Part shown: one piece after another, positions 13,153 through 21,847 of the stretch
Layout of the letters: every line of letters starts with the position of its first letter
Numbering within the stretch: position 1 is the first letter of the stretch
From: Deltaproteobacteria bacterium CG11_big_fil_rev_8_21_14_0_20_42_23
GTDB lineage: Bacteria > UBA10199 > 2-02-FULL-44-16
Direction: 5' to 3'
Assembly: GCA_002796345.1 (NCBI GenBank)
Contig: PCXC01000032.1
Location: 1-37,517, forward strand
Length of the DNA stretch: 37,517 nucleotides
Notes under the pieces: generated by a model
What the model was told of the DNA's origin: nothing
What the model saw: the letters and a program-made list of their open reading frames with translations, nothing else
The model's database searches: none
Translations under genes and position numbers: made by a program

Positions 13153-13238
13153 AACACTTTGCTGTCATTGCGAACGAAGTGAAGCAATCTCCTCTGACAA
13201 TTCTAAAACCGAGATCGCCACGTTTCACTCGCGATGAC
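13119..13238. repeat. Dispersed intergenic repeats, copy 2 (two units)
   Basis: The first unit starts at 13119 (GTCATCCTCGCGAACGCGGG) and supplies the hydrolase C-terminus. The second, 13164-13238, runs from GTCATTGCGAA to CTCGCGATGAC and is a 75-bp inverted-end element matching copy 1 in reverse. Both are empty forms: they lack the small GCCTGCC palindrome seen in copies 1, 4 and 5. Confidence 0.8.
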
Positions 13239-19209: not shown

Positions 19210-21423
19210 ATGTTTGGGGGCTTAAAGCAGATCTTATTTTTTCACCGTTACCTAAAAGGATATTTTTCCTTTTTTCTTTTTGCGCTTTTTTTCACCGCCG
19301 TTGCAGTTTTGCTCTCGCTCTTAGCGCCGCTGCTCACACGGGTTTTATTCGATTACGCCTATCCTCTGCACAGCCTGCAACTGCTCAACGTTTGCATTAT
19401 GGGCATCGTTGCCATTTACATTTCTCAACTTTTGCTAGGCGCTGTTTCAGATTACCTCGAACTCTATGCCCAACAAGAAGCAACACACAAACTGATGTAC
19501 CAGCTTTATCAGCATTTGCAGGAACTGCCGCTGGCGTTTCACCAAGAGAAAAGCAGCGGAGATCTTATGCACCGTCTTACCGAAGACGTTGGCAACAGCA
19601 TGGGCATGATTATGTCATTGTTGCCAACGCTTCTCATCGACGGCGGAAGGTTTGTGGTAGTGCTTTTGCTGGCTTTTTACATGAACCCAAAACTCACTCT
19701 TTTGGCCACACTCGCTATTCCTCTTTATATTTTAGAAACAAAATTTTTCGCTCATCGCTTACAAAGTGTAAAAAATGAAGCCATCGATTCGGACACCGAA
19801 ATCATGAGCCTTTTGCACGAGAAAATTCCCAGCATCCGTACCATCAAGGCTTTTGGGCAAGAAACACAAGAAGCCCTTTCGTTTTCTAGACTCGTGCAAA
19901 ACCGCTTCAAGATTGGGCTTAAAGAACGCTTGCTTGAAATCACGCATAGTTTTTCCAACTCGCTCACCCTTCAAATGTGGGGCGTTTTTCTTACGTGGTA
20001 TCTTGGTTACAATGTTGTGGTGGGCAAACTCAGCATTGGCGAAATTGTAGCGCTCATGCTGTATTTGGAAATGCTTGGCGATCCCATTAAATCTTTCATC
20101 CATCTTTTTACTTCATGGAAAACAAATGTAGTTTCCATGCAAAGAGTGCGAGAAGTTTTCTCCAACCGAAGTGAACTTAAAAAGAAGAAAGCAGAAAAAG
20201 AACTTGAAGTCACAAGCGGAGCCATATCAACCAAGGCCCTTAGCTTTGAATATCAAAAAGATGAACACATTCTAGAAGATCTCAACGTACAATTTCCCGC
20301 AAAGTCACTCACTGCCATTGTTGGCCAAAGTGGTGCTGGAAAATCAACGCTGGTCAATTTGCTGATGCGTTTTTTTGAGCCTAGCCTCGGTGCCATTTTT
20401 ATTGATCAGCAAAACATCTGTGAAGTAAGCGTGAATAGCCTCAGAAATCATATTGGCATGATTGCTCAAGACTTCAATTTATTCAAAGGAACTGTGCTGG
20501 AAAATATTTTGTACGGCAATGAAAGCAGAACTGAAGCTGATGCTATAGATGCAGCACGTTTTGCGGGCGCCTATGATTTCATCCAAAAGCTTCCTCACGG
20601 AATTCATAGCCAGGTTGGTTTTGCGGGCGAGCTTCTTTCTGGCGGACAACGCCAACGCGTTGCAATTGCGCGCACGCTTTTGCGAGATCCCGATCTTATT
20701 ATTTTTGATGAAGCTACAAGCGCGCTTGACAGTGAAAGCGAATTGAAAATTCAAGAAACCATTTTAAAACTTCGCCAGCACAAAACGGTTATTGTCATTG
20801 CTCACAGACTTTCCACCATCAAAACTGCCGACAACATTCTGGTGCTTGAAGATGGCCACTTAAAAGAACAAGGAAGCTTCGAAGAATTGTTGGCAAAAAA
20901 AGAAGCTTTCTATCGCTACTATTGGAACCAGTTTGGCGGGCTCTCTCACTTTAAACAACAACTCGATCAAGAATTTGAGCGCAGTGTCCGTTACCGATCT
21001 CAATTTTCTTTGGCTATGCTGCAAATACTTAATTACAAAACCATTGCTAAAAACACATCGTTTGCAGCCGACCAGCTTATGCACGAAGTTGATTTCGCCC
21101 TCAAAAAACTGATTCGTCTTGGCGACAATATTGCTTATTACAAAGATGGACTTTTTCTTTTCTTACTTCCAGAAATTGATGATGAACATTTAAATGGTTT
21201 TTTTGCTCGTATGAGTTCAACGCTGCCAAGCTATGACATTCCATCACTGGGTCGCCCGCTAAACCAAACAGACCTTCGTTTTTGCGGCGCTGCCTTTAAA
21301 GGAAAGCTGTTTAAAAATTCAGAATTTCTTCTTCAAGCTTTGGAACGTTTTACTCAAAATGATGACAGCTCTGGTTCTTATCAGATTGAACAAGAAGTTT
21401 TAATGGAAAATTATGAGAACTAA
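19210..21423 (+). CDS. ABC exporter (permease-ATPase) with C-terminal degenerate GGDEF domain
   Basis: The 737-residue product has a six-span exporter membrane domain (residues of about 15-300) and a complete ATPase: Walker A GQSGAGKST (372-380), signature LSGGQRQR (from 476), Walker B into DEATSALD (Asp500, Glu501) and H-loop His532. After the normal end near 580 comes an extra domain of about 155 residues. Its sequence FERSVRYRSQFSLAMLQI and then IRLGDNIAYYKDGLFLFLLP aligns by eye with diguanylate cyclases. The catalytic GGDEF five are here KDGLF (645-649), so cyclase activity is not expected. The fold may be regulatory, for nucleotide binding or dimerisation (inference). The substrate is unknown. 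The stop overlaps the next small gene by 11 bases. No Shine-Dalgarno is obvious. Confidence 0.85.
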   Translation: MFGGLKQILFFHRYLKGYFSFFLFALFFTAVAVLLSLLAPLLTRVLFDYAYPLHSLQLLNVCIMGIVAIYISQLLLGAVSDYLELYAQQEATHKLMYQLYQHLQELPLAFHQEKSSGDLMHRLTEDVGNSMGMIMSLLPTLLIDGGRFVVVLLLAFYMNPKLTLLATLAIPLYILETKFFAHRLQSVKNEAIDSDTEIMSLLHEKIPSIRTIKAFGQETQEALSFSRLVQNRFKIGLKERLLEITHSFSNSLTLQMWGVFLTWYLGYNVVVGKLSIGEIVALMLYLEMLGDPIKSFIHLFTSWKTNVVSMQRVREVFSNRSELKKKKAEKELEVTSGAISTKALSFEYQKDEHILEDLNVQFPAKSLTAIVGQSGAGKSTLVNLLMRFFEPSLGAIFIDQQNICEVSVNSLRNHIGMIAQDFNLFKGTVLENILYGNESRTEADAIDAARFAGAYDFIQKLPHGIHSQVGFAGELLSGGQRQRVAIARTLLRDPDLIIFDEATSALDSESELKIQETILKLRQHKTVIVIAHRLSTIKTADNILVLEDGHLKEQGSFEELLAKKEAFYRYYWNQFGGLSHFKQQLDQEFERSVRYRSQFSLAMLQILNYKTIAKNTSFAADQLMHEVDFALKKLIRLGDNIAYYKDGLFLFLLPEIDDEHLNGFFARMSSTLPSYDIPSLGRPLNQTDLRFCGAAFKGKLFKNSEFLLQALERFTQNDDSSGSYQIEQEVLMENYEN

Positions 21424-21607
21424 TCTTTTAGAAAAAACCTTTGAAAGTTTTACTCTTGGCCTCAACAAAACCAAAGCATGGCTGCTGGTCTTGCTTGGAG
21501 CGTTGTTGACGCTGGCACTTCTTTTTGCAGCTGTCTGGTATTTTCAAAACCCTCTTCAGCTCGAAACAAATCGCACATCCCTGCAACAACTGCTTATGCA
21601 AAAGTAA
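21413..21607 (+). CDS. 64-aa single-span membrane protein coupled to the ABC exporter
   Basis: This small frame starts at ATG 21413, inside the last codons of the exporter gene (11-base overlap). It encodes an N-terminal amphipathic or charged part (residues 1-20), one strong transmembrane helix (about 22-44, KAWLLVLLGALLTLALLFAA) and a polar tail of 20 residues. I know no family for it. Overlap and topology suggest an accessory subunit made together with the exporter (inference). A repeat cluster begins just after its stop. Confidence 0.6.
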   Translation: MRTNLLEKTFESFTLGLNKTKAWLLVLLGALLTLALLFAAVWYFQNPLQLETNRTSLQQLLMQK

Positions 21608-21622
21608 TTCTGGCAATTCTGT

Positions 21623-21830
21623 GTCATTACGAAGGAAGAGATTTAAGTTTGTCATCCTCGCGCTTGCCTGCCTTTGGCAGGAAGGCGGGGATCCAGCAAT
21701 TCAAACACTTTGCTGTCATCCTGAGTGTAACGAAGGATCTCCTCTAACATTTGAACGAGGAGATTGCCACAGTCGCTACGCTCCTTCGCAATGACAGAAA
21801 ATTGTGGGTTCCCGCCTTCGCGGGAATGAC
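21623..21830. repeat. Dispersed intergenic repeat cluster, copy 4
   Basis: Several units of the GTCAT...ATGAC family are joined here (starts at 21623, 21650 and 21714, ending CGCGGGAATGAC at 21830). The unit at 21650 carries a small palindrome at 21663-21681 (CCTGCC, TTT, GGCAGG) between CTCGCG and AAGGCGGGG. The empty form of this site is seen at 13130/13131. Open frames over this region are repeat artefacts. Confidence 0.8.
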
Positions 21831-21847
21831 AAGCTCTCAAATTGAGA

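Follow-up and report, generated by a model that had tools for sequence, protein, structure and literature searches.

An ABC exporter gene with a C-terminal extension

The window analyzed here is the whole 37,517-nucleotide stretch of contig PCXC01000032.1, and the exporter gene, its domains and the small gene next to it lie on its plus strand. A single open reading frame with an ATG start (19210–21423) encodes a 737-residue ABC exporter half-transporter with a C-terminal domain that we assign as a degenerate GGDEF domain. Residues 23–290 (19276–20079) match the transmembrane domain ABC_membrane (PF00664) with 134.5 bits in Pfam, the nucleotide-binding domain occupies residues ~335–574 (20212–20931), with ABC_tran (PF00005) matching residues 355–504 at 104.9 bits, and residues 580–737 (20947–21420) form the extension, identified from PF00990, AlphaFold2 and Foldseek. 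The ATPase motifs are all intact: Walker A (20323–20349), the LSGGQ signature (20635–20649), Walker B with its Glu (20695–20712) and the H-switch (20803–20805). With a transmembrane domain and an ATPase carrying each of these motifs, the product of 19210–21423 is a complete ABC exporter half-transporter, for which ATP-driven transport is predicted from the motifs. Two specific identities were ruled out by score: the MsbA lipid A exporter (383.5 bits against an NCBIfam equivalog cut-off of 602) and the HlyB type I secretion ATPase (362.9 bits against a subfamily cut-off of 725.55).

An initial annotation had begun the extension at 20945, which is two bases out of frame; the codon of residue 580 begins at 20947. 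Its quotation of the domain stretch, IRLGDNIAYYKDGLFLFLLP, with KDGLF in place of GGDEF (21142–21156, read from the sequence), is exact, but it overlooked an RxxD motif inside that stretch, to which we return below.

A small single-TM protein encoded next to the exporter

The initial annotation also overlooked a conserved small gene downstream of the exporter. This gene (21413–21607, plus strand) encodes a 64-residue protein with a single transmembrane segment, and its start overlaps the exporter gene by 11 nt. In all ten genomes that carry the fusion (see below), a single-TM open reading frame starts at −32 to +7 nt relative to where the exporter's stop codon ends. The encoded proteins are 44–153 residues long, the copy in G005 having 44 residues and that in G007 being cut by the contig end. 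Those of the closest members have in common an N-terminal LxDxxIxxFSxKDLxxRV-like stretch before the transmembrane segment, and several of the neighbor proteins terminate in a W/Y-x-x-L-L/W-like motif. No match was returned by an NCBIfam search of three long copies, and Pfam gave only a weak, sub-threshold HlyD_3 match (E = 0.014) for the G012 copy. No other neighbor was seen in common to all ten loci. From its linkage, the small bitopic protein is probably an accessory subunit of the exporter.

Other features of the loci are less widespread. In G008 and G004, and not in the other members, the same run of three genes is found close to the exporter (L035 2368–4844, L038 13010–15378); by eye, it encodes an isochorismatase-like hydrolase, a thioredoxin-reductase-like oxidoreductase and a radical-SAM-like protein. 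In the window, a short dispersed intergenic repeat with a CTTCGCAATGACA core is present in three copies, versus 0.1 expected; it is found at 21600–21840, just downstream of the two-gene unit, and also at 13163–13175. RNA elements, including c-di-GMP riboswitches, were not found in the window at the gathering threshold.

Fold of the C-terminal domain

The proposal that a complete exporter ATPase is followed by a GGDEF-type extension is borne out by four approaches that agree with one another: (i) PF00990 (GGDEF) matches residues 580–680 with 31.0 bits in the full protein and 33.9 bits for the domain alone, above the curated Pfam cut-off of 23.8 bits. (ii) A profile built from eight members of the fusion family and searched against the PDB matches solved GGDEF domains with E-values down to 1.3e-15. 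(iii) Structure prediction, which had been suggested as a check on the extension, returned a GGDEF fold; the AlphaFold2 model of the domain alone has a pLDDT of 83.5 and a pTM of 0.81. (iv) With this model as the Foldseek query, the best 50 PDB matches are all GGDEF proteins, with probability 1.00, and the fold matches include SadC, DgcR, WspR and PleD. In the full-length AlphaFold2 model (pLDDT 78, pTM 0.57), the helices of the exporter are followed along the sequence by the ATPase domain and then by structural elements in GGDEF order. The C-terminal domain therefore almost certainly has a GGDEF fold. A chance likeness is ruled out by the profile, the fold and the conservation of the fusion, and an annotation or frameshift artefact by the single open frame and the occurrence of the same fusion in ten genomes.

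Distribution and phylogeny of the fusion

A search for the same architecture in related genomes, also suggested earlier, covered 46 genomes of the class and recovered the fusion in ten, all from uncultured bacteria and spread over seven families: the window's genome and G004, G005, G006, G007, G008, G012, G024, G029 and G045. Pairwise identity among the ten members is 19–65%. The initial annotation had named homologous exporters without any conservation of the extension as a refutation; this was not seen, and the extension is conserved. In a tree of the ABC parts, a branch with 100/100 support separates the ten members from 16 other ABC exporters, which is most simply explained by the fusion having arisen once. 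G005 and G012 form long branches whose exact placement is unsure.

The fusion was not seen among ~450 genomes outside the class in a domain-profile search, in which the matching proteins have 249–579 residues and are too short for it, and a plasmid search gave no relatives. A 741-residue GGDEF protein of G043 was considered as a further degenerate member and ruled out, since it is not an ABC protein.

Loss of the active site and retention of the I-site

We aligned the ten family domains with 22 intact GG(D/E)EF sequences from the same and other genomes and compared them column by column; the family sample comprises ten sequences from one class, and its rows are not independent. Lost or variable in the family are the metal aspartates, the FK and ND motifs, the GGDEF loop and the C-terminal DxxxYxxKxxGRN. 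The signature and the GTP- and metal-binding residues are gone in all ten members, so an active diguanylate cyclase is ruled out and the description of the domain as catalytically dead holds. The same losses weigh against the idea that a modified active site lets the domain bind and sense GTP or some other nucleotide. Such sensing has precedents among degenerate GGDEF domains, namely the GTP-sensing Caulobacter CC3396 (PMC7288161) and YybT/GdpP, which shows weak ATP hydrolysis (PMC10243994), but across the present family the positions of the metal, phosphate and guanine contacts (D605, D607, F609, K610, N613, D614, D621, GGDEF, K719 and N724) are all lost or variable, and we regard this explanation as most improbable.

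Against this background of decay, a small set of residues is invariant. Of the 38 columns conserved at ≥95% in the 22 active cyclases, four (E588, R594, R636 and D639) are present in all ten members, and the other 34 do not hold throughout the family. The chance that the four retained columns would include all three I-site columns is P = 4.7e-4 (hypergeometric), a value that ignores shared ancestry and serves as an indication only. Present in ten of ten members are the primary I-site RxxD, R636-x-x-D639 (21115–21126), both arginines at the secondary I-site positions, R591 and R594 (20980–20991), and R667 (21208–21210). In the active cyclases, by comparison, arginine occupies the R591 position in 77%, and the R667 position holds 13 Arg and 9 Lys. 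From the 6zxm alignment and residue spacing, we take R591 to be equivalent to PleD R313, R636/D639 to R359/D362, and R667 to R390. In DgcR, R594 corresponds to R163 and R636/D639 to R206/D209 in the printed alignment to 6zxm. The I-site of PleD consists of R359, D362 and R390 together with R313 from the neighboring domain (PMC7288161), and that of DgcR of R206xxD209 together with R163 from the neighbor; arginines are enriched at either of the secondary positions (PMC8041772). R591 and R594 represent alternative secondary-arginine positions, and perhaps only one of the two acts.

Of the ten columns that are invariant in the family domain, five are the charged I-site residues R591, R594, R636, D639 and R667. 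This proportion bears on the earlier suggestion of a dimerization module, here taken in the form that the domain is a structural leftover that joins the nucleotide-binding domains without binding a nucleotide. GGDEF domains can indeed pack as dimers, and most of the domain surface is free to vary, but packing would favor hydrophobic contacts over charged ones. Dimerization alone accounts less well for the invariant Arg/Asp set, and we consider it distinctly unlikely as the sole role. RxxD is also found in 22 of 22 sampled active cyclases, and its retention might reflect inheritance or a structural need, even though 34 other columns of equal conservation decayed.

The domain combines a dead active site with a conserved RxxD and supporting arginines, the features of degenerate GGDEF receptors of the I-site type. 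Because the active site is gone and all known I-site residues are invariant, the domain's likely ligand is c-di-GMP, held at the allosteric site. Judged from these residues, the C-terminal domain quite probably binds c-di-GMP at its I-site. Of the roles put forward initially, second-messenger sensing is the one favored, specifically of c-di-GMP at the I-site; sensing of a substrate nucleotide is less likely.

Family members that have lost the ATPase motifs

The ATPase motifs are intact in eight of the ten members, that of the window included. In G005 and G012, Walker A, the signature, Walker B, the D-loop and the H-switch are all destroyed, while their open reading frames are intact and the complete I-site set is retained. 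The ATPase-dead exporter homologs with an intact frame and I-site lie at L039 10048–12264 and L044 7082–9187. More than any other observation, retention of the I-site despite a dead ATPase hints at a role of the domain that is selected in its own right, and the two dead ATPases show that ATP-driven export is dispensable in some lineages. Transport may not be the sole output of the fusion protein.

One explanation takes this further and regards the whole protein as a transmembrane c-di-GMP signaling receptor on an ABC exporter frame, in which ligand binding would act on both the membrane part and the bitopic partner protein, with ATP-driven transport secondary or dispensable. In its favor, G005 and G012 keep the open reading frame, the I-site and the small partner in the absence of ATPase motifs, and that partner is the most constant neighbor. 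Perfect ATPase motifs in eight of ten members, however, are not expected from pure signaling, and the G005 partner is reduced to 44 residues; as an account of the family it is unlikely. A related, evolutionary version, that a lineage of exporters is evolving into a membrane-bound receptor for c-di-GMP whose conserved core is the I-site domain and the small bitopic partner, is doubtful as well. If it were true, the ATPase would have died in at least two lineages while the receptor was kept, leaving an inside-out c-di-GMP signaling device built on a former pump.

A model for control of the exporter by c-di-GMP

Two cyclases with intact GGEEF, two HD-GYP-type domains and four PilZ proteins are encoded in the window's genome, in which no EAL domain was found; synthesis and removal of c-di-GMP in this cell are therefore very likely. 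Separate from the exporter, the window's genome, G000, encodes a ~510-residue protein with a degenerate GGDEF and an HD-GYP-type domain (C40:7440–8507, L003), and G001, which belongs to the same family, encodes a similar protein of 514 residues (L049 4534–6075).

We propose that the exporter is controlled by c-di-GMP through its fused degenerate GGDEF receptor. The functional unit would be a homodimeric ABC exporter with two GGDEF-derived domains suspended from the nucleotide-binding domains and acting as the c-di-GMP receptor. In the monomer model the domain follows the ATPase domain directly, a position in which the two copies of a homodimer could come into contact. The I-sites of PleD and DgcR hold a c-di-GMP dimer that links RxxD on one GGDEF domain to an arginine on the other (PMC7288161, PMC8041772). 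By analogy, (c-di-GMP)2 would bridge RxxD and R667 of one domain to R591/R594 of the other, and this bridge would staple together or reposition both domains and alter the opening and closing of the ATPase domains, so that c-di-GMP would switch export through the pump. In this model the small bitopic protein is taken as an accessory subunit. We favor this proposal as a whole, with reservation: an effect of c-di-GMP on transport is somewhat less likely than binding at the I-site. If c-di-GMP is bound as predicted, the protein would be an export pump under direct second-messenger control, and from its homodimeric layout follows a clear prediction for the structure, in which a dinucleotide spans the two domains linked to the ATPases.

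Comparison with known systems

Residues 1–575 of the window protein align over their full length with exporters of the MsbA, HlyB and P-glycoprotein type. The scores are all far under the respective family cut-offs, and no match among those listed extends over the C-terminal domain. The initial annotation knew of no described exporter with this fusion, and our literature searches for an ABC exporter fused to a GGDEF or other c-di-GMP receptor, partial in coverage, likewise found no description. The elements are each known, and their combination, an ABC exporter with a degenerate GGDEF domain, appears to be new.

With PleD and DgcR (the latter in complex with c-di-GMP in 6zxm) the domain has in common the fold and the same five contact positions; it differs in that the catalytic residues are absent and the input and output domains are replaced by an ABC exporter. 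In function, the nearest likeness, together with OpuA (below), is to PelD and BcsE, degenerate GGDEF receptors that bind c-di-GMP via RxxD (PMC7439463): each has a catalytically dead GGDEF fold with the RxxD I-site kept and serves an inner-membrane export system, and BcsE is partnered by BcsF, a short membrane polypeptide (PMC7439463), comparable to the small neighbor described here. Neither PelD nor BcsE is among the PDB sequence or fold matches listed for the domain, and in both the receptor forms a subunit of its own within a polysaccharide system of the synthase-dependent kind, whereas here it is fused to the ATPase of an ABC exporter. The ammonium transporters 8qj3, 8qj4 and 8qpf in the PDB also combine a transporter and a GGDEF-like stretch in one chain, as indicated by sequence match, but the transporter has the Amt fold. 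A precedent for the proposed mode of control is the glycine-betaine ABC importer OpuA/BusA, in which c-di-AMP gates transport by way of CBS domains attached to the ATPase (PMC10243994). There, as we propose here, a cyclic-dinucleotide receptor domain on an ABC ATPase controls transport; OpuA/BusA joins an importer, CBS domains and c-di-AMP, and the present protein an exporter, a GGDEF domain and presumably c-di-GMP.
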